From the NCBI GenBank assembly GCA_009602725.1, contig WELB01000021.1:803502-867501 (forward strand): DNA of 64,000 nt, written 5' to 3'. The notes below the pieces were generated by a model. It did not search any database. It was not told the origin of the DNA and saw nothing but the letters and a program-made list of their open reading frames with translations. This document shows positions 16,429 to 55,924 of the stretch, piece after piece; the first letter of the stretch is position 1; every line of letters begins with the position of its first letter. The position numbers were made by a program, and so were the translations under genes. The DNA is from Spirogloea muscicola. Lineage: Eukaryota; Streptophyta; Zygnematophyceae; Spirogloeales; Spirogloeaceae.

Positions 16429-17163
16429 CTACAAGACGGCATGTCTGGAGAGGAGCAAACGCTCATACCTCTTGAGTGGTTGACTCTCTTGAGTATTCAT
16501 ATCCAGCAGCACAAGCGGCAGGTGACCTTTAGCTTCATGATCCAAGGCTCGCAATATCAGAAAGTGCTGGACAATAAAATCGTTACGCGCTGCTTGCAGA
16601 AGCCCAGGGCAGGCGGCTGGAAACCACAACTGCAGAGGGATCCAGCACATTGTCAACAATTGCATCAGTAGGTATTCCGCAAGCAGGTCAATGAGAGCAA
16701 ATGGCGAGAGAGGAAGTAAAGTGCGTGAGAAAGTACTTCAATGTATTGGTCAAATTTCATAGCTCGTTCTATGAAGGAGCTGACAAGGTATGCTCATGCA
16801 TCATCGGCCCGCAGAGGGTGTTGCTGAGCAAGAGGAACAGTGTTGTTTCTAAGGCATGCGCGTCTGCTCGCGACTCCTCAGCGCGAATAAAGCTCCGCGC
16901 ACTTACGGCCTCACCTTAGGGAATGATCTGCAGTTGCGGGAGGCTTCTTGCATGGCCTCAAAGAACCTCTCGAGGGCCTTCATGCAAGCTGGTGTCAATG
17001 TCATGCCCATCTTGGACAATTCGGCTTTTGCAGCTTGAATGTCATTGTAACCTTGATCCAAGAGCTGAACGAGACTCTTGGCTTTCTGTGGAAGGCTCTG
17101 TGACTTCACCGACCACTGACTCAGAACCCCTTCACCAATGAGCTTGACGACTTTGTGGAAGGT
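16429..17163 (-). CDS. Small helical-exon/WFP family member (exons 2 and 3)
   Basis: Member of an unrecognised gene family repeated in this window. Helical exon 16,915-17,163: 83 codons, phase 0 at both ends, opening TFHKVVKLIGEGVLSQWS and closing ALERFFEAMQEASRNC then RSFPK before the gtgagg donor. The intron is 285 bases. Last exon 16,429-16,629 begins LWFPAACPGLLQAARNDF and is open to a stop at 16,429. The shared features are the Cys a few residues before the donor and a last exon opening Leu/Ala-Trp-Phe/Tyr-Pro. The first exon was not found: the sequence just upstream of the helical exon is also open and hydrophobic (LGCFFIFCMLALIVG), which could be a signal-like leader. Function unknown; likely helical throughout. 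Confidence 0.5.
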
Positions 17164-17954
17164 CTGCAGTGCAGGACATGCCAAACATGAATCACCCACA
17201 ATGAGAGCAAGCATACAAAAGATAAAGAAGCAACCAAGAGGTAGAAGCTGCAGAAGACAGAAAATCAGAATAAGTGCTGTGCGCGTTTGCCATAATCATC
17301 GGTCCTGCTGCCTGCAATCTGTCTTGTGAGCACAATGTATACACAGTGCCACATTGTAATGCACGTGTGGAACCTTTTACAATGTGGCGCTTCTAGATGT
17401 ACCCGTCTGCAAGGCAAGGCAGGCTTCCCGAGAAGAGTGCAAGTCCTACAACGGCTGTTCTCACCAATGCTGGCTGGCTGCAGTCATCTTGCCTGGTTGA
17501 TGATGTTGACATTACTAATTTCAGTGGAGCAAGAGTGTGTGGGATCTTCCTGCCACCCTTGCTCCCGCTTGAGTCATAATTTTGGAGTGTCTTCATGTGC
17601 GTGGCGCTCCGGGCCCTGCCCATGTTCCTGAGAGCTGCAAGCGACGCACACGGCGTCGTTGTGTCGTGTTGGACTTGAGAGCCCTAGCAGCAGGGGCAGC
17701 AGCGGCACAGCTTTGGGTGGTGGGAGCTGGAAGTGCAAGCAAGCTGCTTGTGGCGAGGTGGCTGAGAAACTAGGCCGAACGAGAAGTGTGACGTGGCTGT
17801 GCAAAGAGTCGTGGCTTGGTCCGGAGGCTAGCCGCGTGGCCGCCTATGACTTTTGGTGCAACGGGATTGGACTGTAATCGTATCATCGTCCTGCCGCCCA
17901 GAGCTGGAGTCGTGCCACCTGGGCGGCTGGGGGGCGGGCTTGACCCTCCGGACG
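17164..17954. other. No recognised gene
   Basis: Open frames on both strands are short and mutually overlapping. If the family member at 16.4-17.2 kb has a distant first exon it should lie here or in the GC-rich stretch beyond. Confidence 0.4.
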
Positions 17955-18035
17955 ACCAACCAATCCCCCGCCCACTTTCTCCCCCCCCCTCCCTCCAACC
18001 CCCCACTTCGCCCTCCCTCCTGCCACCTTTAATTT
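17955..18035. repeat. Pyrimidine-rich (C-rich) tract
   Basis: About 80 bases made almost entirely of C and T, with runs of eight and six C. The complementary strand has several G runs of three or more and could form a quadruplex. Simple low-complexity sequence. Confidence 0.7.
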
Positions 18036-20151
18036 CCATTCCTCCGAAGAATGTATTGGCTTGAATGTGGTCACCATCAGATCAAGCGCACGCGCGCCTT
18101 CTCGCACTTGAAGGCCTCCCCCAACCGCTTCCTGCTTAGTCCGTGTGAGTCATCTTATCGCTAGCCGCGACGACTCTCTCGCCGCCACTCTTGGTTCGCG
18201 GGCCGAGCACCCCTTCTCCGACCCGTCGCCCCCAAAGCGGCGGCGCGCTTGATGCCAGCAGGGCTCCCACGGCCCCACCGTGAGTTCAAGCGTCCTCAAA
18301 GCCCCGTCTCCAACACCCTTGGCAGACGAGGCTCACGCCGTTCGTGTCCGCTCCGCTTAAACCCCTCTGCCGGTCCGCACAGGGCAGGGTTCTGCATTGG
18401 CGAGCTTCGCATTCAACACTCGCATCTGCGGTCCTTGCCGAGGGCACCTGTCTCGGCGGACGTTGTACACGACCACGCTTGAAGAGCACCGCGACATCTT
18501 CGAGCTGCCGCCATCCCTTGTAAGCGGACAATGTAGGTGAGGGAACCTCCCGGAAGCGCCAGACTGAAGCGCAGCCTCGCAATGCCCCTTCTGTTACCTA
18601 TTCTGAGCACTTTGCTGTGACTGCACATGGATATCAAACCAGTACCTTGCCTATGATCAACCCATCGCCGGCTAGCATGTTCACTATCTCGACATTTCCA
18701 TGGTTGGAAGCACTGCGCTGCTTCCTTGCTTGCAAGCCCGCTCAAGGCGGCTCCAGCCGGCCCCCTCCACTGACAATGGCTTGAGGTCCCCTTCTCCAGT
18801 TATTGGATTGTACAAGCGCGGCACTGTGTCTGCTAGTGAGCTTTGCATTAGCCTCTCTGGCACTCTGGCACCAACAAGCCCCTCGACACTCAGAGACAGC
18901 GCTCAACAGACGTGAGCCCTTATCCTCTATGTCAATGGCTGCAAACATGGTTTTGGAAGGACATCCATAAGCCCATTAGAGGGTCAGAAAGGATGGACAA
19001 GACTCTGATCTGTGTCAAATAATTAGACCGAGACCCACGGCAACACAGTCATGCAGCAATACATTTCAAACGACAATGCCTGGCGCAGTAGCTACTGCTT
19101 AATGGACCAGTGTGCCAGCTAGGCCTCCTAAGAATGCATACTGTCCTACAATCTGAACACCCTTACTCCTTCTATGCTATGCTGCAGGTTGCTTCCTTGT
19201 TCAAAAGGCGGCTGTGAGGTGTGCAGATAAAGTGTTCGGCATAGTGAGGTAACCATGATGTCAGGAGTCTATCTATCTCTGTTGAGAATAAGACATGTGT
19301 GTTATGGAAATGTGCTGGAAATTGCAGGCTTCCCTACTTACATAGCCACAATAAAAAATGCAGATGTAATTCTTCCACGTGCTTCCAGCTTCCAAGCATA
19401 GTTGGTCGTGAACTGGGTTTATGGCTGGGTTCTACTTGCCAGCAATGTGTTCCACAGCTTGCCAACTGTCACTGCACGATGCTTCATGCAGTGATAGTGA
19501 GTAGGGAGGTGGCAGCTATTGTGGTCAGTTCTGGTCATCCCCTTTCACCCCAGACGAAGCCCTCGGCTCAGAAATTAAGATTTCAGGTTCAGACTTGATC
19601 ATCCCCATGTGCACTGAAGATTTGTAAATCTGACTGACTTTGGTCTCAGACCTTCAGCCCCTCAGGGCTTCAAGTTGACGTGAGGAGAAGCTGAGCAAGT
19701 TCATAGCTGCTTCTGTGATATGCAGGCCGGTTAGAACCTTGCTGATAACAGTCTACCAAGACAATGAGCTCCTTGTAGCTCAGGTAGGAGTATTGTGATG
19801 CCTTCTACCCTTCCCAAGTACAGTCAGGACCTACTTGCACCTACAGAAGATAAGACCATTTGGTTGGTGCCAGAACGATGCGACGTGCACGTCCCTCAGA
19901 GAGGACGGTAAGCAAATCATTTGTCAGCAAGAGAGCAAGCCCACAGAGATAAAGATAGCTGACACGCATCTGCCACTAAAGTAGACTCACCTACTTTAAG
20001 GGTTGGCCATGTGTGTGCACCTGTATTGCTTCTGTAATCCAAGAACTGCATTGAGGTATATCAGCATGCTCTTGCAGCCCAAGCATACAGGCAAAGACCT
20101 GTCAAAGCAAGCTGTTGCACTGCAGCGAATCAGGACTTGACCTCATTTCAG
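18036..20151. other. No recognised gene
   Basis: GC-rich to about 18.6 kb, then average. No domain, no tail copy and no family exon was found. The stretch from 18.9 to 20.1 kb is stop-rich in all frames. Confidence 0.45.
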
Positions 20152-20387
20152 TCTACCTGATTGTGCAGGAGGCATCCGATAGGGCTGCACATAATTATGT
20201 GATGAACATTTGTGATTCATGGGAGAGGCTTAACAATGATCTGACCAGAGTAGATCGTGACGCATGTCATTGCAGGCCTTGGTACCTCTCTTGTATGGTC
20301 GTTGCGATTAGTACAGCAGCTGTAGTTTTTGCCGGGGCTATGGCAGGTGTAGGATCTCAAATTTCATGGCTTAGGCCTAGGGAGTAG
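20152..20387 (+). other. Possible last exon of a membrane protein
   Basis: After the acceptor cctcatttcag a frame runs to a TAG at 20,385-20,387. It starts YLIVQEASDRAAHNYVMNIC, continues with DSWERLNNDLTRVDRD and ends in one clear membrane span, MVVAISTAAVVFAGAMAGVG, followed by a short basic tail. The composition looks protein-like and the hydrophobic run is unlikely by chance, but no upstream exon could be joined and I do not recognise it. Confidence 0.35.
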
Positions 20388-21424: not shown

Positions 21425-21950
21425 AGCCCTTTCGAAAGTGAGTAACTCTTTCAGAGGAGGCGGTGGCTGTGAAGTGCCAGCCCTAAGAAAATGAACAAAG
21501 TCAGAGGAAGCAGAAAGCAGATATCATTGAGAAAAGCGTCCACTGAGGAGAGCCGCTCAATAAGCCCTCAGTCAGCGGCCTCCTTCCATAAGCAGGCTGT
21601 GGCTGTGAAAGGGCAGCTCATAAAGAGTTTGCAAAGGTCAGTCGGATTGAAGTCGGCCCATGGCACTGTAAGTGTGCCTTGCCCCATTGCGGTGAACCAT
21701 CTGCAGGAAGCAGGCAAGCCTTAGCTAGTAGGCACTTACTGCACTACTGGAGATGGCCTAAAGTAAGTCGAGGTAGCTGTAGCAGCACGAACCTCGGTCA
21801 AAGAGCAAAAGTGAGTGCCTCTGGGGCAAAAGCTTGTAAATTGCAATGTTAGTCTGGCGGTGTGCCAGAGAAAGGAGATACTATTTTGAGCTGGCGACAT
21901 AGGCGGAAGGAAGCAATGGCTGTGGAAGGCCAGCCCAAAGGACTGGAGAA
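21425..21950 (-). repeat. Three reversed LINE-tail copies
   Basis: Tails at about 21.44-21.50, 21.58-21.64 and 21.89-21.95 kb, each with (g)gtggctgtga or atggctgtgg, a partner gccagccc or ggcagctc and, in part, gaacaaagtc. All are on the minus strand, spaced about 150 and 310 bases. Confidence 0.65.
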
Positions 21951-22239
21951 GAGAATGTGTGGGGTACTTGCAGCTCAGGACGCGCTTCTTGTGCTTGGGC
22001 TTGGCTGCTCGAGCGTCCTTAGACTAGCTACGAGTGGCAAGCTTGAAGCAATAATTGTCTTTCAGTCGGATGGCGCCAGAAAGAGACTGAGAAGTCAATG
22101 CCAAGATTTGCCAGTATCCCGTCAATATAAAGACTATCCTGCACAACAAGCGCGATTGATCTGTTGCCGGCAGGCTGTATTGCGCTCCTTGCGCTCCTTG
22201 GCACCTGCCGCTTGGCAGACTGCATAGCCCGCCTCCTCC

Positions 22240-23400
22240 GCCCATTGGTGAAAATTCCTGGAGTCAAAGCAGTTGGTAACAATGACTGCTTTATGATCTG
22301 GGGGCCCTTGCCCAGCGTGCTCGCGAAGAGGTCCCCACGACGCGCGTGTCGACGGCCATCCGCCCAAGTGTGATGGGCATGACATGGAGTTCTCCATGGC
22401 AACGTTGTAACTCGCCTCCAGGAAGACACCATACATGGTGTTCCTGAGGAGGTCGTGTGTGCCGGTCCACTCTTTTCCCATGCGCAGTGGTGTGCGCCGC
22501 CATCGCCGCTGCCTCTGAGCTGCGCTCTCCACACTTGCATTGCACCAACTTACTGAGGCAGGGTGGATGGAGGCCAAAAAGGCGGTGGACAGCCGTGCGG
22601 AAGATGTCATCGGGCATGCTGAGCGCCGCATAGATTGGGAGGGCCGTCAAGCATGCCGCCGCCCCTGGGGAAGAAGCCAACAATATCCGGGTGCACCTAC
22701 AAGTGTCATCCTTGACTAGGAGGTCGACAGCCTGGTCGAAGGCCGCCTTCTCCACCTCCGCCAAGTACCCGCGCCTGAGCACGCAAGTTGGGTTTGTGTG
22801 TAAGGTGCGGAAACAGGACAGCCCGTTGCGTCAGGTCGGGGTGGGATGCTAGCAGCACATCACGGCCTAAGCATAGGGCCGCCTGGAAAGGTAGCGGGCC
22901 AGTCCCACATCCGCTTCCTTCTGCTCCAGGGCGCAACAGCTGTGCTGGATGAAGCGCCGGGACAGGGAAGCGGCAACCTGCGCCCAGCTGCCCAGGTACG
23001 CCACTTCATAGGCGTGCGTAAGTGGGCGCAAGCGAAACCGCCGCAACTGACGGGCAGGAAAGACTGCTGCAGAGCGGCTGGCGTGTTGAGAGAGGCCAAG
23101 TGCTGGAGCGAGAGCCGCCGCGCTTGCCAGGTTGCTGGCGTTGAAGGACTCGTAAGCCGCCTACAGGGCCAAATAGGGAGGAAGTGCCCAGGCCAGGAAC
23201 TATGGGCGCTGTACAATAAAGCTGTGCAGCATGGGGTGCGCCAGCTGCATGTCCAGCAGCTCTGGGAGGCGGTCCACCAAACGGAGGTGATCCTGCAGCC
23301 GGGCCGGCAGCGATTTCACCAAAGGCCGGTGCACCTCCGGGGAGGACAAGGAGGGTGAGGCCGCCTAGAGGCGTCTGACAGTAGGAGGGCAACTGCAGGG
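22240..23400 (-). mobile_element. Decayed LINE, thumb to zinc finger
   Basis: A longer and older LINE copy. From 23,400 downward the minus strand shows, across shifted frames, the RT thumb area (KSLPARLQDHLRLVDRLPEL, MQLAHPMLHSF), LPVSCGGF, PFQAALCLGRDVLLASHPD, LTHKPNLRAQAR, LPIYAALSMPDDIFRTAVHR and the finger QCKCGERSSEAAAMAAH, to about 22,290. At least four frame changes separate these blocks. It is the only copy here that reaches clearly into the reverse transcriptase. Confidence 0.7.
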
Positions 23401-24439: not shown

Positions 24440-24650
24440 TTTTGGGCTCCGCTTCCAGGAGCCAGCTTCTCCGACCTGCGGTTGCTTAGCAGGGTGTACT
24501 GTGTTTCCCGTTGCGTCGTCCTGTGTCTAGCTCTGTCATTTTTCTTGTCGGCATCTTCTGGGCTCTTTAAGTTCTGTCCCTTCTTTTCGGGCTGGCCTCT
24601 GCCAGCCCCTCTTCTCTATGGGCGCGCACTTGCTTCTTTTGGGAGTGTAT
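24440..24650 (+). mobile_element. LINE coding end and tail
   Basis: cgcttccaggagccagcttc through gttgcttagcagggtgtact is the LINE coding end (RFQEPASPT in a shifted frame). The tail follows with ttcttttcgggctggcctct, gccagcccctcttctctatg and ggcgcgcac. Confidence 0.75.
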
Positions 24651-24724
24651 ATTGAGTGATGGAGAGCGCGGCCAGATTAACTGATGGAGTCCTGGCGTGG
24701 CAGGGCCAGGCCTGCTGAAGTCTG

Positions 24725-25170
24725 TCGGATGTGAGGCTCCTTACTCGTAACTACTAAGTGGTCCATCCTCCCCCCTTCTGCCATAGCCTCTTCAGCCACC
24801 AGTTAATCTGGCCGCGCTTGCTCTCTTCAGGCCCCACAGTCGCTGCTTAGCTCGTAATTTGGCCCCTTCGAACCTTGTCAATTCTTTTCGGGCTGGCTTC
24901 TCACAGCCCTTGCCCCCAATGGGAGCGCCACTTCTTTCTGAAATACGAAGCTCTACTGAAAAATGAGAAGTGGCTATCACAAAAGGGGGGCAAGGGCTGT
25001 GAATAGAGGGAAGGGCTCGCCCACTGAGGATAGGGGCTGGAAAAAGCCAGCCCAAAAAAGAATGAACAAACGCCAGCCCACTTCATGATACTGAAGGGAG
25101 CTCTTCCAAAGGGGGCGGGGACTATCATGCCAGCCCATGAAGAATTGACAAGGTCGAAAGGGCCGAATGG
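24725..25170. repeat. LINE tails in both orientations
   Basis: Plus-strand end and tail at 24,725-24,945 (gaggctccttactcgtaact, then ttcgggctggcttctcacag). Minus-strand tails follow at about 24,965-25,085 (two hairpins in a row, the second ggggctggaaaaagccagcc) and 25,095-25,165. The first two face each other tail to tail. Confidence 0.7.
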
Positions 25171-25199
25171 CGCTGAAAGAACTCAGCTATGCAGGAGAC

Positions 25200-25365
25200 T
25201 ACAGCGAGGGGAGCTTAGTAACCCCGAGTCAGCAGCCGCAAAGCGGAGCCACTAGCAGCTGGAACAGAGGCACCTCGACGACGTGGCCTGCCCGCACTGC
25301 GTGAGCAAGGGAACGTTGGAAGCGATGACGGCGAGAGGCCAGCCCAGGAGGTGGAGAAGACGGCG
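25200..25365 (-). mobile_element. LINE coding end, reversed
   Basis: The minus strand reads QRSLAHAVRAGHVVEV and a degraded end corresponding to LRLLTRGY-stop, then adjoins another short tail fragment at about 25,325-25,365 (gcgagaggccagcccaggag). Confidence 0.65.
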
Positions 25366-25928: not shown

Positions 25929-26776
25929 TCATTGCATCTGGTTGAATGCGCTCATTACTGCGATTCCTTGGACTGCACAGATGCCTTTTGCCCTGTTCAA
26001 AGAATCTATTGAGGTCCTCGCGGGGTACCAAGCCTGCACAAGATCACGGGCATGTCTCTTAATGTCAGTGCGACTGCCATTGTGTGGATTACTTAGGTCC
26101 CAAAATTGCTTTCCAGTTGTTACAGCTAGCCAGTTGACCACTTTCAGTCTGTGGCAAGGCCCTTGAGCCTCATATGGTTGCTGAGGAATGTTGTCGCTGA
26201 TTTGTTCCCGTCAGAGAAAAGACGTGCTGCATCCAATGCCGCAACTTAGTAGCAGTGTTGCTTGCGTGTCTCACCCGAATAATCTCATGGCATGCACGTT
26301 GTGCATCATCCACTGCTTGCAAGAATCATGACACAGGATCTTGCACAAGGACAGCATTGACAGGAGTCTGCCTTTGCAGCTCCTGCATCGCTGATTGTAT
26401 GATAGCTTCCGCTTGTTGCAACACAGGAAGCAGCAACGAGGCCTCCTGTCTTGCGTTTTGTTGGCTGTACGCTTGCCAATGCTGCAACAGATACGTCATT
26501 GTTCTGGAGATTACGTCTCGAGCAGCCAGGACGACCTGCGACCACAGAGCTAGCAGGTGCAAATTGGTCAAGCATGCATATGACACTTGACTATTTTGGA
26601 AGTCACTTCAAGTCAACAGAAAGTAACAATAGAAGCCTCAAAGAATACCAGTCTTGCTCATGAAAATGCTAGCTGTAGCCTCAAGATCCTGGCACTTAGG
26701 TTAGTGAGAGGCCTGACCACATCTTTGCTGGTAAGACCTTGCCTGATAAAAACAAGAAGTACTTTGAAATCTCCAT
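25929..26776 (-). pseudogene. Small helical-exon/WFP family member with in-frame stop
   Basis: Three-exon member of the unrecognised family. Candidate first exon 26,738-26,776 (MEISKYFLFLSGK, 13 codons, phase 0). Helical exon 26,275-26,535: 87 codons, phase 0 at both ends, VVLAARDVISRTMTYLLQHW onward to FLQAVDDAQRACHEIIR before gtgaga. Last exon 25,929-26,033: AWYPARTSIDSLNRAKGICA to FNQMQ and a stop. Introns are 202 and 241 bases. Codon 70 of the helical exon is TGA with the same frame resuming directly after it, so the copy is probably a recent pseudogene unless the TGA is read or is a sequence error. The last exon is 34 residues, close to the 35 of the 46.2-kb member. Confidence 0.5.
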
Positions 26777-30659: not shown

Positions 30660-31698
30660 ATGTCTGAAATGGCCAATGCTGCTGCTGCTGCTGCTGGACG
30701 CGACAATGCACCGGCAGTAGAGGTGAGCTGGTCGAGCAGATCACGACATACTCTTGCATCTGTGGCGTTTTGCAAATGACAAACGCATTTGATTTGTATT
30801 CGTGCTGACTTGCGGGTTCGACACACGACCAGCTAGCACTACAGCCTGTCTGCGGTCCTAAGCTGTCTTGCTCCTGCTGTGTTGCTTGCTGCATTGTTGC
30901 GATCTGCCTGGCTCGCGCAGAGCTTAGCTTCTCATTAGACAGCAGGAGTGTCTGCCCTTGGACAGGAGAGTGACTTCTACTCTGCTGCCATTGTGAAAGT
31001 GGAGAAATCTGCGTTCACGATCTTGCCAGGGTGGACATTCGACGGCCATGATGATCTGGAGAAGATCAAGACCTTGTCTCAGGACCTGGTATATTGCAAA
31101 CAGCAGGTTGAGGAGCTGAATGTACAGCAAAAAATGTGTACCGAAAAGGATGATAACCTCATTATGCATCAGGCACAGCAAGATGCGGCTGGCAAGCTTG
31201 TGGAAGCAATTAGAGAAGCTCATCGGGAATGCAGTACCATATTGAAGGTCAGCAGACTAGCGTGATTCTTACCGCCAATACTGCAAGAGTGCATGTGTCA
31301 ATCATCTGCTCCTCATTGAAGTACTCATTGAGGGCTAGAAATGATGGCTTGATGTACAATGCATGGAGCAGCTTCAGGAATATAAGTTCGCAGGAGCATC
31401 TGAAGCATTTGTGCTGGTGCTTACACACTTGGACTGAGCCCGTTCAGATCAGTTCGCACACAGAAGATGTCCATGCATGGCGCCCCTTGCAGAATCGTTG
31501 CGTTATTTTGACTGTAAGAAGCTGCTGTAGGCCTGGCTCCCAGGCCGCTGTTCGAAGCGTCCCCTCTGCATTGCTCGAGGAGTCTTTGAGGTTCGACATG
31601 CCATTTATGTGGGGCTCCTAAAGGCTGCACAGAAGACCAAGGTGACAGTCTTGCCTCAGCAGCTGTGGCTTGCGAAGGTCAATCGACAGCTAGGATAA
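30660..31698 (+). CDS. Small helical-exon family member, 3 exons
   Basis: The most complete plus-strand model of the family. Exon 1, 30,660-30,722: MSEMANAAAAAAGRDNAPAV plus E, phase 0, donor gtgagc. Exon 2, 30,939-31,247: 103 codons, phase 0 at both ends, with heptad-like stretches (LEKIKTLSQDLVYCKQQVEE) and the terminal KLVEAIREAHRECSTILK before gtcagc. Exon 3, 31,663-31,698: LWLAKVNRQLG and stop, exactly 36 bases, as in two other places in the window. Introns 216 and 415 bases; predicted 135 residues. The Leu-Trp opening of exon 3 is kept but Phe-Pro is not, so exon 3 is the least certain part. Likely soluble and helical; no known domain recognised. Confidence 0.5.
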
Positions 31699-38154: not shown

Positions 38155-38320
38155 CCAGCCGGGAGGGAGGGAGGAGAGGGAGGGAGGGAGGGAGGGGCCC
38201 GGGAAAAGAGTAGGGGGAAGGAGGGGAGAGTGGGCGGGGCATGGGGAAGTGGAGAGGGAGGGGGTCGGGGAGGGAGAGGAATTGCATTTCCGAGTGAGGA
38301 GGGAAAGAGAGAAGGGCTCG
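38155..38320. repeat. Purine tract with many GGG runs
   Basis: About 165 bases of nearly pure A and G on the plus strand, with more than a dozen GGG or longer runs (ggagggagggagg type). It ends about 150 bases before the start codon of the PstS-like gene. A reversed LINE tail (38,305-38,370) separates it from the core promoter. Confidence 0.8.
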
Positions 38321-38393
38321 CCCACTGAGGATAGGGGCTGGAAAAAGCCAGCCCAGAAAAGAAAGGGAAGGGGTTTAGTGACAGGGCCCTGCG

Positions 38394-38400: not shown

Positions 38401-38470
38401 GGGCTCCCCAGCCACCACTTTGCTTCCCCAGCGCGCTCTAGCCCTCCCCGCGCCCCTCAGCCTAGCAGCC

Positions 38471-39640
38471 ATGGCTCGGCTTGCCGTTGCCGCCCTGGTC
38501 CTCGCCTGTGCCGTCTCCGCCTTTGCCGCCTGCTCCCCCTCCACCGCCAAGTACTTTGGTGGCGCCACCTCCGTCCAGGCCCTGGAGAACCAGGTCCTCA
38601 GCACCTACGGCACCTACGGTTGCTACGACTCTGTCGGGTAAGAGTCTAAATACCCTGGTTTCCATTCGCGGTTTTCTTCGAGCGATATCTGCCAGAAGAG
38701 AGTCTGCCTTGTGGATGCATCCTTCATTGTCCTGACGACCGTCCGTCCATTCTGAAGGGGTTCCCTTCCAATGCATAGACTGATTGCCATGCATGTACCT
38801 TCTTTGGTGCCTGCCAGTTCCGGAGCCGGTTACACCGGCTTCAAGGCCAATACCTACAAGGTTGCCGCATCTGACGCGGCCATGACAACCGCCCAGGAGA
38901 GTGGCTTGGGCTTCACCAAGCTCACCATTCCTCAGGGCCTGCAGTCATACTCCATCCTCTACAATGGCGGCACTCAGCTGACCCTGTCCTGCCAGAGCCT
39001 TGCTGACCTCTACTCTGGCTTCTCTGTCTCCATTGGTGGTGGTGCCATCACTGTCCCAGTCGGTCGCTCCGACTCCTCCGGCACAACCTTTGTCTTCTCT
39101 TCCTACCTGAATCTGTGCACTGCTAGTGGTCCCCGCCCGTGGCCCGCGTCCAAGGTCGGCGAAACTGTCGCGTGGGGCTCCCCTCGCCTGGTCACTGCCG
39201 CCGGCTCCAGCGGCGTTGCTTCATACGTTTTCTCCCACCCTGGTTCCCTCACCTATCTTGGTACCCCAGTTGCCTCTACCTTTGTTACCGGCAACATTCG
39301 CATCGCTTTCACAAATAACAAGGCTGGCCAGAACTACAAAGGTAGCTCATGCTCTGTGACCGGTGCCATCCCCGTATCTGTACCGTCTGCTACAGCCACC
39401 TGGTCTGGAGTCAATACCATATTCCAGCCTGGCTCCGGTGTCTGCCCTATGGTATCATTCGTCTACATCTGGGCCCGCAAAACATACCCCTCTGGCACCC
39501 CCACTGCTACTCAAACAAAAGCTTTCCTCAACTTCATTTACTCCACTTCCGGTCAAAACCTCCTCCCTCCCCTTGGCTTTGTAGGTGTACCATCCGGCCT
39601 TCTCACTCAGAACAAGAATGCTGTTGCCACCATTACGTAG
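38471..39640 (+). CDS. Secreted PstS-like phosphate-binding protein, 2 exons
   Basis: Predicted secreted or periplasm-type phosphate-binding protein of the PBP2/PstS class, which in bacteria delivers phosphate to the PstCAB transporter. Exons 38,471-38,637 and 38,818-39,640, intron 180 bases (gtaaga...ctgccag), 329 residues. Residues 1-19 are a clear signal peptide (MARLAVAALVLACAVSAFA). The intron splits the codon just before SGAG in the N-terminal GVGSGAG-like ligand loop. Further PstS landmarks: KVAASDAAM (about 71-79), GRSDSSGTTFVFSSYL (about 138-153, the RxDxSGT phosphate-binding loop), SSGVASYVFSHPGSLTYL, and CPMVSFVYIWARK. The ATG has a good context (gccatgg). A eukaryotic PstS-like protein without its transporter subunits nearby probably works in the wall or on the cell surface, as a phosphate scavenger or sensor; that is inference. 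No frame damage is visible. Confidence 0.9.
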
Positions 39641-41159: not shown

Positions 41160-41749
41160 ATTTAAAACTGGCTATAATGTGCAATTCCAGCTCGCATCTG
41201 CTGCTGTGATCGAATATCACTACGTTTGCAATGCAAATACGTTTGCAAATTGTTTAGGGCTTGTAGCAACAATCGAAGCAAGGTGTAAGTTGTCATACTT
41301 TGGAAATTGAGTACCCTGCTTGGAGTCAGACATCCCACAGAGTCAGTAAACTGCTCATCGCCATCTTGCATTTCTGCCCGAGAGTTTGCAAGTGCAGCTA
41401 CTTTAGCTCTGCTAACGGCATTAGCTTGACAGCTGGCTAATGTTTTTGTCAGCTGGTCCAGGTGCTTCTCCAGTCTGTCGAATTGAGACTCATCCTTTTT
41501 CATGAAGGGAGTAGAGGATCCCTGGGACTGAGCAGACACATTATTTGATTCTTCTCCCAGCAATGTGATTCGACATGACCCGACCTTCCGCAGTAAGAAC
41601 AAGTCGCTCCAAGCGTCTAATGCAAGGCAGTGCAAATTTTACTTCATGTGACCTGTCTTACCACAACTGCGGCACTTCACAACAGCTCGTGGTCGGTAAT
41701 GGTCAGCTCCATGGTTCATCTTCTGAGAATAACCAGGTTCAGCCCCAAG
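41160..41749 (-). mobile_element. LTR-retrotransposon gag relic
   Basis: Fossil of the nucleocapsid end of a gag gene. Two CCHC zinc knuckles (KCRSCGKTGH and CSYCGRSGHVESHC) follow a basic stretch and precede a coiled-coil-like region. Copia or gypsy type cannot be decided from this part. No pol domain and no LTR pair was recognised. The relic is broken in a few places and looks old. Its upstream edge coincides with the left edge of the 2.2-kb duplication. Confidence 0.55.
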
Positions 41750-43880
41750 CTGCCTCCACTCCTTAGTCGCCACCACCACTGCATGAACGCAAGTCCTCCG
41801 CCGCCACTGCTAGTGCCCCATGCCTTCCGGCCGCTATGGATCTCAAAGTCGGTCAACATGCCTGCGGCAGATCTCAATAAAGGAGAGGCTGCATGGCTTA
41901 CGTGATTTCACAACTGGCACAGCAGGATCACTCCAAGCGCACCAAGGGATGCATGAGCTGCATGGGCAGGCCCTCGATGAGTTTGAGGTGCCGACGCATG
42001 TGAAGGTCCTTGACATGGGCATTGCTGCAGCAGCAGGAGCTGCATCGGCGACTGCAGCAGCCCGAAGATATGGTGAGTAGGTTTGACCACTCTCTTGCCG
42101 GTGCTTCTTGAGGCAGCGGCCTGGGAAGGCAAAGTTCGCTGACAGTTAAGTCTGTAGGCGTTACTGAAGCTCTTCATTGGTATTGTGAGGCTTGGATGGA
42201 GGATGCAGGCGTTGGCCTGACTACCTTGGATACAAAAGTCATGGTCCTTGAAGCCAATCAGAGACCCTGCATGCTTGACCAGAGTTGCACTGAGATAGAT
42301 GAATGGATTCTCAAGTGCGACTCAGATATACTTTGTCATCCTTGCCGATCTTATAGGCCTTCTTGCTGGCGCAACTGACGAGCTCCAAATAGCTGCAAAA
42401 TGGAAGGCTTCATTACTTCCAGGAATGCACCTTTTGGAGATGCAATCTAAAGGGTCCAAGCTTCACCTGAACGGCCAGCTTATCCCTCGCTTGGCATACA
42501 GTACAGGTGGTTGTGAGCTGTGATTGGTATGATGCATTGCATAGGAACGGCATTGTTGGATAGCAATGCAGAAGTGCTATCAGCATGTCAGGATTCCTTA
42601 GTCAACCAGGAGTTCCCAAGATGCCTGCCGCAGACTGTCTGACCAGTGCAGAGGCTTACTGGAGTTTAGGTCAGTGCAAAGTACTTGATGCCAAAGCACG
42701 AGGAACAGATAAAGGAGACGTTCCAGTAAGACCACCTTAGCAGCAATCAATTGTCCAAGGCGCGGCGACTTGGAAACCAGGCCTGCAGCCAGGTAGATTT
42801 CATGGAGCAGGTCATGCCATATGTCCCATGATCAGCCCAATGCCCAATCTCAGCAAGCAAGTACCCATGCAGAGCGGACATCTCAACAAGAGCAAGCTGC
42901 ACTGCTTAAAGGACGCCTAGCCCTAGCATTTGTACATGGCAGAAGTATCTCAAATCGGCCTGTACCAGAAGTAGGTGAACCGGACGGTTATCTACAACGG
43001 AGCGCACTGAACTAGAAAGAGACAGGCATTTACAATCTATTGACGATTCTCCCAAAAGATTGTGATAGCTTGTGAAGTCAAGGAAGCCAGTAAAGCAGGG
43101 GCGCCAGCATTCTCGGGGACGGGTCAACAAGGCTGGGTCGACAAGGCTATTTTCATATTTTCACCTGGAGCACGTTGTTACACTCGTTGCTTGCAGCAGT
43201 GATGCTATCCAAGAAGGAGGACAGGACCACAAGTGTCTGAGGTTCTAGATACACTGCCGTACTTGCCAATGTGGGCCTCCAGCACTCCAGAAGCATCAGG
43301 AGGTCACTTTGAAGATGTGTGGCTGTCGCTTGGGCAGTTCTGCGGAGATGCCTTGCTTTCACAAGTGTGCTGCCTATGCAGAAGACCTGCCAGAGAGTCA
43401 CGGATAGACAGAGCACATAAGTCACATTTGCACGGCCGGACCTCCCGGATGCTGGTCGTCACTCTTCGAGCACTACAATCTGCCCTCTGGTATGCGGAAG
43501 AGGGTGTCCTCTTGCATGCGGAAGAGGGTGCCAACTGGTTTGTTGAGCTCGACGAGCATTTACACACCAGAAAGACAATGGCAGCTAGAGGATGGAGTGA
43601 CGTGTGCGACGACCAATGCAGATGTGAGCATTCAGCGGAGGTGCAGGGCACGTCCAGACGTCCAAGGGCCAGAGAGGCCATACCGGGAGAAGGAGGGCGA
43701 AGCCGAGGACCGTCCAGACCATGTCACTGGATCGCGCGCGGACAGCGGGGGAGGCAGAGAAAGGCGTGCGATGGGGGCGAAGAGGCCAATGCACGGCTCG
43801 TGGTGCAGAGAGCCAAAGGAGAGCGGGCGAGGGGACTGCGGCGGGCGATTGAGGGCCGCCGCGAGCGCGGGGCGAGGGAG
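41750..43880. repeat. Direct segmental duplication, copy 1
   Basis: Matches 45,237-47,510 in the same orientation. Shared landmarks in order: gccaccaccactgcatga; ttgctgcagcagcaggagct; ggaaaccaggcctgcagcca; cctatgcagaagacctgcca; gaggccataccgggagaagg; and ggactgcggcgg. Identity by eye ranges from high in the exons to low between them, so the duplication is old and tandem, with about 1.36 kb of LINE-rich sequence between copies. Confidence 0.8.
42747..43681 (-). CDS. Small helical-exon/WFP family member, duplicate 1
   Basis: Three-exon model, about 123 residues. Exon 1, 43,568-43,681: MASLALGRLDVPCTSAEC onward, 38 codons, phase 0, in a GC-rich start region. Helical exon 43,165-43,386: 74 codons, phase 0 at both ends, VFCIGSTLVKARHLRRTAQA through SFLDSITAASNECNNVLQ and a gtgaaa donor. 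Last exon 42,747-42,782: AWFPSRRALDN and stop, 36 bases. Introns 181 and 382 bases. The helical exon keeps its frame against the duplicate at 46.7 kb despite many amino-acid differences, which argues that both were under protein-level selection at some time. Function unknown. Confidence 0.5.
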
Positions 43881-44099: not shown

Positions 44100-44720
44100 T
44101 CGAGCTCCTCCCTGGGCTGGCCTTCGGATGAATAGCTCTCCCATATAAGGCAGGGCTGGGTAACGCCAGCCCAAACGGAATGAACAAGGTCCAAAGGCCC
44201 GAAAAGCGCCACCACCGCACAGCTCTGCAAGCTTTTTCCACATCTGGGAATGGCTGCTTCTTGGAAGAAAGGGGCTCTCCTCATAGCTGTGTGGCTTCAC
44301 CGCCTTTGAGGCTGCTCAACAGGGCTGCTCACCCAGTGGCCGCTGAGTTGCTGTGTGCTCTAGCACTTCTCTGGCCCCTTCAAGCTCTGTTTCTTTTTTC
44401 TGCGCTGAGCAATCACAGCCACCGCCCTCTCTCGGAAGAGTCTTCCTTCTCCTTCTGTCGGCCCTTGTGGGCTTGGCCTCTGACAGCCATTGCCTCATAT
44501 TGAAAAGCTGTTTCCTTGTGACCTTGTCCATGCCTTCTGGGGCTGGGTTTTTTAAGCCCTCGCCCCCTTCGAAAGAGCTCTTAAACCACACATTTAGGCA
44601 AAGTGGCTGCAGCGGATGGGAGCTTACTAACCCAACCCCAAGTCTGCAGAAGAAGCCCTCCTTTCCCAGCCCCTATTCTCTGTGGGCGCGCACTTCTCTC
44701 TTTCTCCTCCAAACCTCTCC
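44100..44720. repeat. Cluster of LINE tails
   Basis: Lies between the two duplication copies. Reversed tail at 44,120-44,200 (gggctgggtaacgccagccc). Plus-strand tails at about 44,375-44,450, 44,455-44,515, 44,520-44,590 and 44,660-44,715, each with a gaagag or ggaagagtc trailer or tgtgggcgcgcacttctct. They explain why the spacer is not duplicated. Confidence 0.65.
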
Positions 44721-45236: not shown

Positions 45237-47510
45237 CTGCCTCCACGTCTTCATCGCCACCACCACTGCATGATCACAAGGCTTGCACTGCCACGACACG
45301 TGCCAAATGACACACCCCCGCTATGGCTTTCAAATCTGGTCAACATGACTGGGGCAGATCTCAATAAGATGAGGCAGCATGGCTGACGTAACGTGACAAC
45401 TGGCTAAGCAAGACTTAATCCAAGCCCACACTGGATTGAATGAGCTGCATGGGCAGGCTCTCGATGAGGTGCCCATGCTTGTGAATGTGCTTGACACAGG
45501 CTTTGCTGCAGCAGCAGGAGCTGCATCAGCAACTTCGGCAGCCTGAAGAGGGGGTGAGTGGAATTTGGCCACCCTCTTGCCACTTCCACTTGAGGCAGTG
45601 CTCTGGAAAGGCAAAGTTAGCTTGCGCTACAACCAGGTCTGTGGCGTACTTCTACCGCACCGTAGGCTAGTCCCTGCATACAGTGACCTATAGGCGTGAC
45701 TGAGCTCTCAAGCTCCCAATCGAGAAGTGAAAGGCTTGGGTGGAGAATGCAGGGTCTTGAGCTGACCACCTTTGATACAAAAGCAGCAGTCAGGTCCTCG
45801 ATGCTACTTATTGACCCTTATGCTTGACCTGATAGCATTGAGGGAAGATGCACGGTGCGCAATGAGATAGATGGATCGTCAGATACAACTGGCAGTCTAG
45901 TTCGTCCTCGTTGTATGTAATATATGCCTTCTCGCTGGCACAGCTGATGAGCTCCACCAAGCTGCAAATAATAACGATTCTCATCACTTCCAGAGTTGCA
46001 CCTCGGAGATGCTATCTAGAGGGTCATCAAGCATACAGTAAATCGGAATGAGAGCTGTGACTAGCATCATGCATTGTAGGAATGGCACTCTTGGAGAGCA
46101 ATGCACAACTGACACCAGGATGTCAGATACTCCCGACTATTCAGAAATTCTCAAGATGACTTCTGTAAAGTGTCTATTGGAAGAAAGATCTTACCAGGAT
46201 TTAGATCAGTGCTCAGCTACTGATGATGCTTCAGAAGAATGAGGATGAGGTCCAGGAGATTTTTCAGCAGGACCTGCTCAACAGCATTCAGATGCCCCAA
46301 GGCGTGGCGACTTGGAAACCAGGCCTGCAGCCAGGAACATGTGTCGGAGCAGGTCATGCCAAATGTCCCATAAACGGCCCAATGCCCAACCACCAGCAAG
46401 CTAGTAAGCACGAAGAGCGTGACATGTCAACAAAAGCAAGCTGCACAGACAAAGGATGCTCTGCCACAAGGAGCAAGCCCTTGGCACCTAGATTGTTCAT
46501 GTCAGAAGTATCTTGTGCTGTGCTTGTACTATGAGTAGGTGGAACAGACGGTTACCTACAGCGGAGGATACTGAACGAAGAGAGACAACCATTACAAGCG
46601 CTAGACAATCATCTCGGAAGATCTTGATAAAAGCGTAAGAGTCAAAGGCTCGCCACTGTAAGGCAGGGCGCCAGGGTGCTCGAGACAGCTCAACAAGGAA
46701 GTGTCACCTGGAGCACGGTGGTACACTGAGAGCTTGCAGCAGTGATGCTGTCCAAGAAGGAGGACAGGACTTCAAGTACCTCAGGCTCCAACAGCAGTGC
46801 CGTGTTTGCTAGTACGGCCCTCCTGTATTCCAAAAGCATCAGGAGCTGACGTTGAAGACCTGTGGCTTTCGCTCGGGCAGTTCTGCGGAGACGCCATGCT
46901 TTCGGGATTGCCCTGCCTATGCAGAGGACCTGCCAGAGGATTCAAAGAAAGACAATGCACATGAGTGAAAGAATCTTTCAGTGGAGGGCTTAACTTGCAT
47001 ACATGAGCTGTATTACGGCCAGACACCCTGAATGCTGGTCGTCACTCTTCGACCACTGCAACGTCTGCCCTCTGGTATGCGGAAGTGGGTGCCCACAGTT
47101 CGTTTGGTCTTGACAGCAAATGTGCACCAGAAAGTAAAGTCACGGCAATTGGAGGATAAAGCAAAGTCGGCAACGACCAGTGGAGATATGGGCAATCAGT
47201 GGAGGTGCAGGGCATGTTCAGACGCCCCAGTGCTCGAGAGGCCATACCGGGAGAAGGAGGGTGACGCCGAGGATCGTCCAGACCATGTCAATAGGAAACT
47301 CGCGCGCCAGCGGGGGACGAAGAGCAAGGCTTTGGGGTGGGAGTGAGGCCGAGCCGAGGCAAAGCTCGGCTCGCAGTCCGGAGGAGAACGCGGCTGCTGA
47401 TGTCAGAACAGCGGCTGTCAAAGCCAGCCAGCCGGAAAGAGCGAACGGAAGAGGGTGGAGGGACTGCGGCGGCGAGCCGAGGGGCGCCGCGAGTGCGGCG
47501 GGCGCGGGGG
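45237..47510. repeat. Direct segmental duplication, copy 2
   Basis: Partner of 41,750-43,880, same orientation. Copy 2 lacks the extra 26-29-base in-place repeat that copy 1 has around 43,480-43,535 (tatgcggaagagggtgtcct then tgcatgcggaagagggtgcc), and has a longer intron 1 region. Confidence 0.8.
46217..46929 (-). CDS. Small helical-exon/WFP family member, duplicate 2
   Basis: Paralogue of the 42.7-43.7-kb gene. Helical exon 46,708-46,929: 74 codons, phase 0 at both ends, VLCIGRAIPKAWRLRRTARA through SFLDSITAASSQCTTVLQ and a gtgaca donor. Last exon 46,217-46,324: AWFPSRHALGHLNAVEQVLL to LLKHHQ and TAG, 35 residues against 11 in duplicate 1. The intron is 383 bases, almost the same as in duplicate 1. 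An exon 1 homologous to that of duplicate 1 starts at the ATG at 47,245 (MASRALGRLNMPCTSTDC), but its best donor does not fit the frame, so it is left out of the coordinates. Confidence 0.5.
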
Positions 47511-51429: not shown

Positions 51430-52335
51430 AACCGAGGCATCAAGCTATTGCTGACCCTGGGTGCATCTGCAACAAGCGACACACCCGCAAAGGTCGTCAA
51501 GATGATGTCTGACAAACTATTTGACGCTAGTCAGTTAGTGCTCAATCTGTGTCAAGCTACTCATTTCCACTGAAATGTGGCAACCCAAAACTCACAAGTA
51601 GGGGGAGGGTCCCCTTGAGCGGCTGCTTTGACCAGCAGGAAGGTCGAGAGTGGCCGCTCGTCCGCTGCCTGGGAAGCCCGCCCGACCAAGATTTTAGCTC
51701 CTCTACAGGGCTCAGCCGACCAGACTGGTACAAGTGAGTTATCAGCTGCGCAAAGGTCAGCAAAACAAGGTCGCGGCAAGGTCAAGACATGGACTACCTT
51801 AGAGGCAGTGACATGTCCGCAGACAGCTCAGTCAAAGGCCGGAATCTGGTCCACGTAAGCCAGTGGCTGCCCAAGGGGCCTGTGCTGAACGAACAGGCCA
51901 CCGGCTCGGTCTCTAGATGGACACATTCACCTGATGTGGCTGCACCCTGCTGTAGAGCACATAAAACTCCACCACTCACAGGGCTTACTGCAGCAAGCAG
52001 GCTGCACCACGAGCCTGCCGCGCAGCCCTGGACGGAGGCGGCGAGCTCGGGGCTCGCCGCGCGCTCGCTACCAGCAGCGAGCGGCGGTGCATGCGCTACC
52101 GGCGGCCGTGGCGCCGCGGGCAGCGCTGCCGAGCATTGCCAACGGGGGGGGCACGGGCTGCTGGCTAGCTCGGCAGTGAATGCCGTCTGCAAAGAGGGAG
52201 GGGGAGGGAGCGTGTGTTGGGGGGGTATCATTGCGGTGTGGGGGTCATTTCGCTTTTGCCACCCCTTCCGGCCATCCACTACACCGTGAGACGAGGACAG
52301 GCTCCTTGAGCGCTGCGACTGCAAGCAAAACAAGC
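51430..52335. other. No recognised gene
   Basis: GC-rich from about 52.0 to 52.2 kb with overlapping open frames. A G-rich tract (gagggagggggagggagcg) lies at about 52,193-52,212. Nothing further is supported. Confidence 0.4.
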
Positions 52336-52420
52336 AGCTCTTCCTAAGGAAGGCGCAAACAGCTCTTCCTAGGGAAGGCGATGACTGTAAGAGCCAGCTC
52401 AAGAGAGAATTACTAGGTCT
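52335..52420 (-). repeat. LINE tail, reversed
   Basis: Begins with the doubled block agctcttcctaaggaaggcg / agctcttcctagggaaggcg, then atgactgtaagagccagctc. Half-decayed copy. Confidence 0.55.
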
Positions 52421-52659
52421 GAGATGGCTAGAGAGGCGCAGACAATACGACAGCCTAAATCTCCGTGACTGCGAAGGAGTGTCGGTTGTTGGAGTGAGCC
52501 GCCAAAGCTGGAGCCACGCGGCGATTGATGATTGCTGAAAGCAGATCTAAGTACTGATTATATCTGTCGTGTGACCACAGGTGAACTGCTGCCTGGTTGC
52601 TGAACCGGCGTGGGCCCAGAAGAAGATGCTCCTTCAGTATGTAGGATCCCTCAAGCAAG

Positions 52660-53100
52660 GAAGAGCCCCCGCTGCCGGAAGAGCGCTCACTGCTGCCTCT
52701 GGCTCTGGCCAGGGGACCCGCTTCCAGGAACCCAGTCTCTCTGACCTGAGGCTGCTTAGCAGGGGTTACTGAGTGCTTCGTAGCTGCTTCGTTTCTTTTC
52801 TGTGCTTGTTCTTCGTACTTCCCCTGGCCCCTTCTCGTCCTTTGTCCATTCTTTCTTGGGCTGGTTTTTCCAGCCCCTATCGTCAATGGGCGAGCCCTTC
52901 TTCCTGCTTGCCTAGATAAGGATGGACAAAGGACGAGAAGGGGCCAGGGGAAGCACTGAGGAAAACAAGCACAAAATTAAACCAAGCAACTATGAAGCAC
53001 TCAGTAACCCCTGCTAAGCAGCCTCAGGTCAGAGAGACTGGGTTCCTGGAAGCGGGTGTCCTGGTCAGAGCCAGAGGCAGCAGCGAGGGCTTAAGCAAGC
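52660..53100. mobile_element. Two LINE ends, tail to tail (long inverted repeat)
   Basis: 52,675-52,910 plus: coding end GTRFQEPSLSDLRLLSRGY, stop at 52,770-52,772, tail with gggctggtttttccagcccc. 52,918-53,100 minus: a second copy of the same end and tail. Arms 52,692-52,850 and 52,918-53,084 pair at roughly nine bases in ten or better, with about 67 bases between them that hold the hairpin of the first copy. Upstream, the minus strand at 52,455-52,650 is open (FSNQAAVHLWSHDRYNQYLD) and may be a host exon cut by the insertion. Confidence 0.75.
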
Positions 53101-53179
53101 CCCTTCAAGCTCCTGGAAGAGCATTGGCACTGGCCCTCAGCCACCGCCTGCCTCCCTTCTGGAGGAGCCTCTAAGGCCC

Positions 53180-53385
53180 TGATCAGGGGACTCGCTGCCC
53201 AGAGACCAGTTTCTCCAACCTGCGGCTGCTCAACAGAGGGTTACTGAATGCTTCGAAGCTACTTGACTTCCTGTGTGCTTTCGCGCCTTCCCTGGCCCCT
53301 TCGAACCATGTTCATTCTTTTTTCTGGGCTGGCCTCTCACAGCCAGCGCCCTCTCCTGGAAGCGTCCTTCTCTGTAAGGAGCCGT
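53180..53385 (+). mobile_element. LINE end and tail
   Basis: FSNLRLLNRGY and stop near 53,244-53,246, then cgaaccatgttcattctttt, ttctgggctggcctctcaca and gccagcgccctctcctggaa. Third LINE end in 700 bases. Confidence 0.7.
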
Positions 53386-54500
53386 CCACAGAAAGTGGAC
53401 ACATATTGGGCTTCCATTGAAACGCTCTGCCCGATGGGCACCAGTCTTGCCAAGTGGGCCGCCCACGCACAAGTTCCTCACGGCTGCGACGGCCGGGTGA
53501 TGGGCCCAAGTCCTTTCCAGCCTCTTGCTTGCCTTCGAAATTCACTTGCTAGCCTTTTCCTTGAGCATCAAGCCTCGGCTTGCTTGAAGCGGCCCATCTT
53601 ACTCCTAGTAATTTACAATGCAATTTTTCCGCAGCAAGGGCGAGGCTCAACGCACTTGCACGCCAAGGACGTGACCACATCGAGGAGGCGCCTTAGAGGC
53701 ATTCGCAGGTACTTGCTGGAGGGCACTGTTTGAGGAGGGCCAGAACGCTTCGTCCGAGGAGGGCTTCAAGCTGCGATGCAATGCGCTCCCCCCTCCCCGC
53801 AAGCAGGCGCCGCCTATCCCTTGCCGCGGCAGCGTCGCAAGCTTGCCCACTGGTGATGGGCCGGCAGTGCTTGGCAAGACGGCTCGTCACCGGCGGCGCC
53901 AGGGTGCTGGTCCCAACCGGAAGGGATGATGAGCCGAGGCTCCGGGCCCGGGCCCAGGCACGCTCCCCCCCCGGACCCCCCCGGGCGGCCCGCCCCTCCG
54001 CGACCTGCCCGACCTGACTGCCATGTGGGACACAGACAGCCGCTTAGCTCTACCCCGAATCTTCACCTCGCGCCAAACAATAGCGTGCCAGGTGAATTGA
54101 GCTGAATGTGATCACGTGGTCCTCGCAGAGCAGCCAATACGAGCGCGCCAGGAGGCAGCACTGCCGACGGCCGGTGCCGGTGCCGCCGTGGGCACCTCTT
54201 TCTCAGCTCCGCGGCACGGAGAGTCGTCGCGGCACCGCCGTGGGTGCCGTGCTGTGCAGATGCCGCGCACAGCGAAAGTCGCATTTCTGATGCGTGCGGG
54301 CGGCCTGGCCGCCCGACTGCGGGCCGTGACCTGACGCCGATGCCCGCCGGCCGGTCCGTGGGTCCGAGCCCGCCGCTGGTAAGGGCGGCCCGCTAACTTT
54401 CTGGTTAGGCAGAGCAATCGGCAACGAATCTTTCGATCAAGGGGCGCGGGCTCTGTAGTGGATCTTCTCTCGGTGCCCTTTCAGACCCTTTCAGATGACA
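53386..54500. other. No recognised gene; GC-rich
   Basis: Open frames at 53,730-54,017 and 54,112-54,417 overlap others on the opposite strand and follow GC content. No motif. Confidence 0.4.
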
Positions 54501-54529
54501 GCCATCTCCCTCGGCTGAAAGACTCATCT

Positions 54530-54612
54530 TTCTTTCGGACCTTGTCCGTTCCTTTGGGCCGGCCTCTCACAGGCCACTGTCTTACAATGGAATAGCTGTT
54601 TCTCCTCTCGGG
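54530..54612 (+). repeat. LINE tail
   Basis: ggaccttgtccgttcctttg, ggccggcctctcacaggcca and aatggaatagctgtttc. The hairpin has changed on both arms in step (GGCCGGCC / GGCC), consistent with pairing having mattered. Confidence 0.65.
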
Positions 54613-54910
54613 ACCGCCCGGCCGCTTCAGTGTGGTGACGGTTAGCAAGCGGGCCGTCAGCGACGCCCGCCACTTTCTCTCGCGGCGAAGACGTGCGTCA
54701 ACGGGCGGGAGGTCAGGTCAACGGAGCGCTGACCGGCGGGAGACCGGGCCGCCGGGCTCTGCGCCGGGAGAACGGTGGCGCCCCCAGGCAGTGCTACAAA
54801 GCGCGCCGCCCTCCGCCTCCATGGCGCCCGTCGCCAGCAGCTTCCGCAGCGAGCTCCCAGGAAGCGGCCGTTGCCCGACTCCCCGACACCGCACCCTCCC
54901 ACTTACGCGG

Positions 54911-55924
54911 ATGGCCTGTCGAAGGCTGTCGAGGTCCGCGGCGGTCGCGGCCATCAACGTCGTCGAGTTCGTGCCAAGCGCCACCAGCCACGACCTCGTC
55001 GCGGTACGCGCTACCGAGCCTCTCTTTGCACTGCACTTACTTCTCAGCTCATCTGCTTGTCCTTGGCTGGTGGCCGAGGCAAGAGTGGGGCGCTGATGCC
55101 CTTTCAAGCCTTTCGTGTCTAAGGCTGAGCCTTGCATCATCTTGGCCTCGTGACCTAGTATGTGCAGGGATTGCTTGAGCTCTTGAAAGGAACTGATTGT
55201 GTGCGCAGCATTGATATTATTCGTGCCGGGGTCTGCACATTCAGCAGTCGTCGAGTCGTTTCGCAGCAGCAATGTGGGTGAATCAATCAATAGAACCCGC
55301 TTACATAACAACTGCTTGGCTTCAATTGACAGCTCATCTTGGTCATTACTGAGGTTGGAGCCGAAATCATGGAGGCTTGGAAGTCCACTTCAGGTGTATG
55401 CAAGAAAGCAGTGTGTCTGCAGCGAGCTGCGCTGCAAGCTATTGACGCTGTCAAAGACCGTTCACATGGCATTGGTGACCTAGAGACTTTTCTATCCTTA
55501 ACCAGACTCACAAATAGCATCCTCGATCTGGACCATGAATGCAACAAAATCCTTCAGGTCAGTCTGTGCCTTGCCTTGCCAATAATGAAATGCTATTCAA
55601 CTCCACCGTTGTTGACAAAGTTGAGATCGTGCTAGGAGATTTCCTGGACAATCTATCTCAAGCCAAGGTTTTCGACCGTTCTGGTTACCTGCTTGCCTTT
55701 GCTCCGCTCTGCTTTAGGGTCTTCAGAACTGACAAAGGATGTCAAAACTAAATTGCTTGCCGAAAGCTACGTCTGACATTCTATTGTGGGCTGCAATGCT
55801 GCAGGCTTGGTTTCCCTGTCTATGCACTCCGGCAGGCTTACGTATCGCTCATGACAGGTTTGAGGTTCAGTACAAAGCAACAGTCCAGATGCTGAATGAG
55901 AGATGCCCAAGGGATAATCACTGA
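54911..55924 (+). CDS. Small helical-exon/WFP family member, 3 exons
   Basis: Predicted 145 residues. Exon 1, 54,911-55,003: MACRRLSRSAAVAAINVVEF to SHDLVA, 31 codons, phase 0, donor gtacgc, in a GC-rich start region. Helical exon 55,333-55,557: 75 codons, phase 0 at both ends, LILVITEVGAEIMEAWKSTS through NSILDLDHECNKILQ and a gtcagt donor. Last exon 55,805-55,924: AWFPCLCTPAGLRIAHDRFE to RCPRDNH and stop, 39 residues. Introns 329 and 247 bases. Length of the helical exon and its ending match those of the 43- and 46-kb members closely. An open hydrophobic stretch inside intron 1 (ALILFVPGSAHSAVV, about 55,206-55,250) might be an alternative leader exon. No damage is visible. Function unknown. 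Confidence 0.55.

Follow-up and report, generated by a model that had tools for sequence, protein, structure and literature searches.

The window, a stretch of DNA of 64 kb with a G+C content of 54.6%, is taken to be eukaryotic on account of its introns. It contains a local cluster of six loci that, judging from their sequence, are very probably diverged paralogues of a single small protein-coding gene. The part of the gene that is directly visible at the six loci (A to F) is a pair of coding exons, designated exons 2 and 3, joined by a phase-0 intron. Loci A (16.4–17.5 kb), B (25.9–26.5 kb), D (42.7–43.7 kb), and E (46.2–47.3 kb) are on the minus strand, and loci C (30.7–31.7 kb) and F (55.3–55.9 kb) are on the plus strand. 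An earlier note on this DNA placed six loci at these positions and counted at least five members. The places are confirmed by motif sites and by leave-one-out profiles of the joined exons (6/6), and the count holds as well: D and E represent one tandem duplication, and the number of independent members is therefore five. The note also described strong sequence divergence with a kept splice architecture. Indeed, the members other than the D/E pair have identities of only 9–24% to A or E and share the phase-0 junction.

At all six loci, exon 2 ends in phase 0 with the motif C-x-x-[IVF]-[LIP]-[QKR], immediately followed by the donor GT[GC]A, and the previously claimed cysteine-containing exon end is thus present throughout. 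Exon 2 is located at 16915–17163 in A (83 codons, CRSFPK/GTGAGG), 26275–26535 in B (87 codons including one in-frame TGA, CHEIIR/GTGAGA), 30966–31247 in C (94 codons, CSTILK/GTCAGC), 43165–43386 in D (74 codons, CNNVLQ/GTGAAA), 46708–46929 in E (74 codons, CTTVLQ/GTGACA), and 55333–55557 in F (75 codons, CNKILQ/GTCAGT). The range of 74–94 codons lies within the 74–103 codons first proposed for this exon, with the reservation that it is interrupted in B. Exon 3 starts 241–383 nt after exon 2, in phase 0, with [CT]AG followed by [AL]W[FYL]P. It opens with LWFP in A (16429–16629, to the first stop), AWYP in B (25929–26033, 34 codons and then a stop), AWLP in C (31531–31698), and AWFP in D (42747–42782), E (46217–46324, 35 codons and then a stop), and F (55805–55924, 39 codons and then a stop). 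The intervening intron 2 is 285, 241, 283, 382, 383, and 247 nt long in A to F, respectively, compared with the 240–415 nt given earlier. The opening LWLA assigned to C in the earlier note has to be abandoned, since a better acceptor, TAG followed by GCCTGGCTCCCA, is found approximately 130 nt earlier at 31531. Exon 3 from this position reads AWLPGRCSKRPLCIARGVFEVRHAIYVGLL and aligns with AWFPCLCTPAGLRIAHDRFEVQYKATVQML of locus F. The idea that exon 3 has a shared donor at a conserved Val was also dropped, as the residues past the Val resemble each other as well.

The reading frame is open through exons 2 and 3 in four of the six loci (A, C, E, and F), because B is interrupted and D is frame-shifted. 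The TGA at 26326–26328 leaves only 17 open codons ahead of the donor in B, and the early stop in exon 3 of D is caused by an indel relative to E. Exons 2 and 3 of every locus are supported by the joined-exon profiles described below, exon 2 of D and E additionally by comparison of the two copies, and exon 2 of A and E by AlphaFold2 prediction.

The motifs at the junction are far from what chance provides. Five AG/xW[FY]P sites are present in the 64-kb window, every one at A, B, D, E, or F, whereas 300 simulations under a trinucleotide model give a mean of 0.43 and a maximum of 4. Donor and acceptor motifs pair within range four times (A, D, E, and F), versus a simulated mean of 0.02 and a maximum of 1. 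The joined-exon test dispenses with the motif filter: for each of 3822 candidate AG/GT pairs lying 200–450 nt apart, the 45 residues that precede GTNA were joined to as many as 30 residues that follow YAG, with pairs near the loci excluded from the background. Each profile omitted the locus to be tested, and D and E were omitted together. All six loci are recovered with scores of 30.5–46.2 bits (E 1.5e-7 to 2e-12), and the best background scores are 5.6–9.3 bits (850–1093 candidates reported per run); the member scores are favoured by junctions picked by eye in advance, but the gap to the background is wide. The corrected junction of locus C gives the top score of the six. The single exons are less discriminating. 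With the exon 2 profile alone, A, C, E, and F rank over all non-members, and B is missed (51/1808 non-members score higher). With the exon 3 profile alone, A, C, and F rank over all non-members, while one of 1701 non-members outscores B and three of 1687 outscore E. A profile built from all six loci finds no seventh locus within the 64-kb window.

The branch-point-like word TGAC should be noted, since it is related to the certainty of the exon boundaries. It lies 26, 34, 22, 32, 32, and 31 nt upstream of the exon 3 acceptors of A to F, respectively, that is, 22–34 nt upstream in 6/6 cases versus 597 of 4311 YAG contexts (13.8%), though the word was selected after inspecting the acceptor sites, where the local pyrimidine content is only 40–67%. 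At the exon 2 acceptors, TGAC is found in two of the six loci. Because these acceptors do not share the word, the 5′ end of exon 2 is placed with less certainty. In locus A, a pyrimidine-rich alternative acceptor at 17247 extends exon 2 to 111 codons and adds a hydrophobic start. The short first exon proposed earlier for four loci is plausible in A, C, D, and E, yet dissimilar between loci. The candidates are at 17465–17512 in A (minus strand, 16 codons, donor GTGAGA) and 30660–30722 in C (plus strand, 21 codons, donor GTGAGC), both weak, and at 43684–43722 in D (donor GTATGG) and 47248–47286 in E, both on the minus strand with 13 codons starting MVWT and drawn from the D/E comparison. The weakly supported parts of the gene model are thus exon 1 and the start of exon 2; of the three exons originally described, the sequence shows exons 2 and 3 with their junction.

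The tandem duplication (41750–43810 versus 45237–47383, 68% identity) contains D and E and allows the parts of the gene to be compared. In exon 2, 46 of 222 nt differ, and in candidate exon 1 three of 39; indels are absent from both (0 in 261 nt together), whereas the two introns, compared over 628 aligned positions, show 170 differences and 14 indels. The corresponding Jukes-Cantor distances are 0.08 for candidate exon 1 and 0.24 for exon 2 versus 0.30 and 0.36 for the introns. The conservation of exon 3 (27 differences in 103 positions, two indels) does not exceed that of the introns, and the final part of intron 2, just ahead of exon 3, is conserved like the exons. The differences in exon 2 fall on codon positions 1, 2, and 3 in numbers of 20, 14, and 12, with a dN of 0.233, a dS of 0.27, and a dN/dS of 0.86. 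This ratio does not single out the coding frame, because the other two forward frames, both with stops, give 0.59 and 1.14. Over the 132 nt from the candidate start, the lowest dN/dS (0.53) belongs to a frame other than that of MVWT (1.14), which weakens the candidate exon 1 of D and E.

AlphaFold2 was run on exon 2 only, with the six rows from the window as input and B cut at its stop. The prediction gives three helices whether A or E is the lead row. With A leading, the pLDDT is 86.5 and the pTM 0.71 (pLDDT of 79.2–86.5 over five models); with E leading, the values are 82.1 and 0.63 (62.5–82.1). This prediction and the fast protein change agree with the earlier description of the family as fast-evolving helical proteins. 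From its sequence, exon 3 appears to form a W[FYL]P turn and then a helix, in which A, B, C, and F share a V[QR] stretch. As read from the alignment, a stop follows this conserved helix within approximately 3–8 codons in B, E, and F, and the frame stays open for 36 codons in A and 24 in C.

The starts of the proteins differ in hydrophobicity. In A, the 19-residue mean is 2.31 when the alternative acceptor is used; with candidate exon 1 it is 2.18 for D and 1.89 for E. Of 69738 open 19-residue windows, 0.34% have a value of 1.85 or more. No clear hydrophobic start is seen in B, C, or F, nor in A when its first acceptor is used (means of 0.79–1.27; 0.91–1.27 for B, C, and F). D and E would therefore carry a hydrophobic N-terminal segment if candidate exon 1 is used, and A perhaps does so through its alternative acceptor.

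We searched for known relatives of the family at the sequence and structure levels. No member reaches any Pfam cut-off, including those of RPW8, MLKL_N, and DUF1221, while control sequences match DUF1221 and the controls NRG1, RPW8.1, RPW8.2, and ADR1 match RPW8 with E values of 4e-12 to 3.3e-45. NCBIfam gives no accepted match (best E 0.034). Against PDB sequences, the family profile has no match up to E 10, and of the single queries A has a best E of 0.16 and E has no match. A Foldseek search with the three-helix exon 2 model gives nothing informative (best E 1.3 among the best 50 of 142 matches), and a search of viral contigs with the exon of locus E alone finds no relative. Membership in Exo70 was considered and rejected: the likeness to its N-terminal domain (Exo70_N, PF20669) comes only from a sub-threshold match of B (E 2e-4, 21.9 bits versus a cut-off of 23.9), one of six loci, the other members have no match, and the strands scanned around A, C, D/E, and F contain no Exo70 domain.

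The family resembles the RPW8/CC-R domain (PF05659; RPW8, HR, NRG1, and ADR1) in size, in its predicted helical bundle, in the putative hydrophobic segment in front of the bundle in D, E, and perhaps A, in an aromatic turn that follows helix 3 when the family is aligned with NRG1, and in fast evolution within a cluster, but it differs in that a family-level sequence match is absent. The comparisons with RPW8/CC-R and MLKL/DUF1221 used sequences confirmed in PDB or Pfam. Alignment with the NRG1 CC-R profile scores 16.7 in the expected register, a value reached by none of 200 column permutations (maximum 16.4) and by 0/150 and 1/150 block permutations. The four-sequence CC-R profile scores 14.7 over 24 columns, with 11.5 for the reversed family, and this is reached by 2/150 column permutations and by 3/150 and 9/150 block permutations. 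HHalign assigns the CC-R alignments probabilities of 0.5–1.1% (about 1% for NRG1). The similarity to CC-R is a hint and not a result, because several templates were tried; the profile support is nominal, and the family is therefore not placed in RPW8/HeLo. We take the helix order of the family to be the same as that of the MLKL N-terminal or HeLo domain (PF22215; DUF1221 in plant MLKL). The profile score against MLKL, however, does not rise over the permutation level (13.3, reached by 13/150 permutations, with the reversed family higher at 14.4), and kinship with MLKL as membership was rejected; a further difference is the lack of a kinase or NLR domain in the strands scanned around A, C, D/E, and F. 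Two further attempts were set aside: a combined CC-R and MLKL profile (12.9, reached by 6/150 permutations), and pairwise Smith-Waterman alignments to NRG1 and two MLKLs, of which the lowest shuffle counts, 12/500 for C versus NRG1 and 22/500 for E versus 6ka4, are not significant because 18 comparisons were made.

These likenesses lead to a working model. The three predicted helices of exon 2, together with the turn and a putative fourth helix from exon 3, would form a stand-alone four-helix bundle of roughly 110–150 residues, preceded in D, E, and perhaps A by the hydrophobic segment. The most likely mode of action, put forward tentatively and by analogy, is that of a membrane-associated helical-bundle protein acting like RPW8/HeLo, in which the bundle would hold the N-terminal segment or insert it when the cell is stressed or infected. 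The protein would be under diversifying pressure, and the fast protein change and the gene turnover may be driven by rivalry with other organisms. RPW8/HR proteins are described as having a potential N-terminal transmembrane domain and a helical bundle likened to MLKL and HET-S; they include a clade that evolves fast (PMC6684095). The complete statement, a family of six paralogues with an RPW8/HeLo-like mode of action, has slightly less than an even chance of being right. It is distinctly unlikely that the cluster as a whole is a fast-turnover set of stand-alone RPW8/HeLo-type membrane-acting helical proteins, of which we know none in this lineage. If it were, small executioner proteins would seem to have existed apart from NLR receptors, and the RPW8/HeLo reading, if right, would bear on the origin of stand-alone membrane-acting bundles before they joined receptors. 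If the family is real and expressed, it is recognisable at approximately 9–24% identity by its splice architecture and a few residues, and ordinary annotation would label such diverged members orphan genes.

A real family of small helical proteins unrelated to RPW8/HeLo, such as an unnamed adaptor or coiled-coil protein, is a serious contender, though somewhat under an even chance, and is about as probable as the membrane-bundle model. It accords with the searches of Pfam, NCBIfam, and PDB sequences and the Foldseek comparison, none of which yields an accepted match; the sole sizable Pfam score is the sub-threshold Exo70_N match of B alone; by itself, however, it leaves the NRG1 register and the hydrophobic starts, both weak, unexplained. 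The exons may also belong to the 5′ portion of larger genes with more exons and with further, unrecognised domains, a reading which overlaps the others and which we consider unlikely. It would explain why the copies of the duplication share conserved islands approximately 1 kb past exon 3, beyond the three exons of the original description, one of them Ala/Pro/Ser-rich (41920–42120 and 45410–45610, minus strand), and why A and C remain open after the conserved helix, but not the stops that follow this helix so closely in B, E, and F. In this Ala/Pro/Ser-rich island, third positions account for eight of 14 differences and a gap of 6 nt is in frame, with two 1-nt indels flanking the island; it could represent an additional exon or part of an adjacent gene. 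Also speaking against larger genes, the duplication stops at 45237 in the E copy, and dispersed repeats follow. A larger host gene of the kinase, NB-ARC, or LRR type was rejected, as no Pfam domain reaches the cut-off in the three frames of the locus strand at 12.6–17.6 kb (A), 30.5–33.6 kb (C), 41.0–47.8 kb (D/E), and 54.6–59.4 kb (F), nor at 11.6–21.5, 33.6–38.3, and 48.2–52.4 kb on the plus strand and 27.4–37.2 kb on the minus strand. It is improbable that the exons are relics, either pseudogenes or non-functional pieces of genes, in a region full of repeats: the TGA in B, the frameshift in D, the dN/dS of 0.86, the intron-like exon 3 of D/E, and the many repeat families in the window speak for it, but exons 2 and 3 of A, B, C, and F overlap no match in a sensitive comparison at the DNA level (E up to 0.5; one match with E 0.22 touches candidate exon 1 of C), and members other than D/E, with only 9–24% identity to A or E, have retained their frame and splice sites, the frame being open in four of the six loci.

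No tRNA is found in the window by ARAGORN with the bacterial code, and Rfam gives no match there at the gathering score. The parts scanned for host genes show repeat families, probably mobile elements, with sub-threshold matches to zf-CCHC, KWL1, and Ogr_Delta. Short dispersed repeats with the dyad GGGCTGG...CCAGCCC are located at 4825–4994, 24575–25240, 38298–38371, 44640–44710, 52640–53100, and 62264–63044. They occur as direct and inverted copies, the arms of which are up to 99% complementary. Related open frames with approximately 35–73% protein likeness are present at 5604–6558, 7182–7631 (plus strand), 8254–9450, 22137–22830, and 62762–63864 (minus strand). They have no Pfam match at E 0.01 in the seven pieces scanned, and are perhaps the end of non-LTR retrotransposons. 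Just past the end of the D/E duplication, 41503–41725 on the minus strand contains what appear to be two CCHC zinc knuckles in different frames, with one sub-threshold zf-CCHC match in Pfam (E 0.029). In the parts scanned, the sole recognised domain at the cut-off is a phosphate-binding-like PBP_like_2 domain at 38.8–39.6 kb on the plus strand (E 1.2e-11), within the open frame 38756–39640. A frame upstream of it, in the region 38468–39640, has a signal-peptide-like start and may be the first exon of the PBP_like_2 gene.
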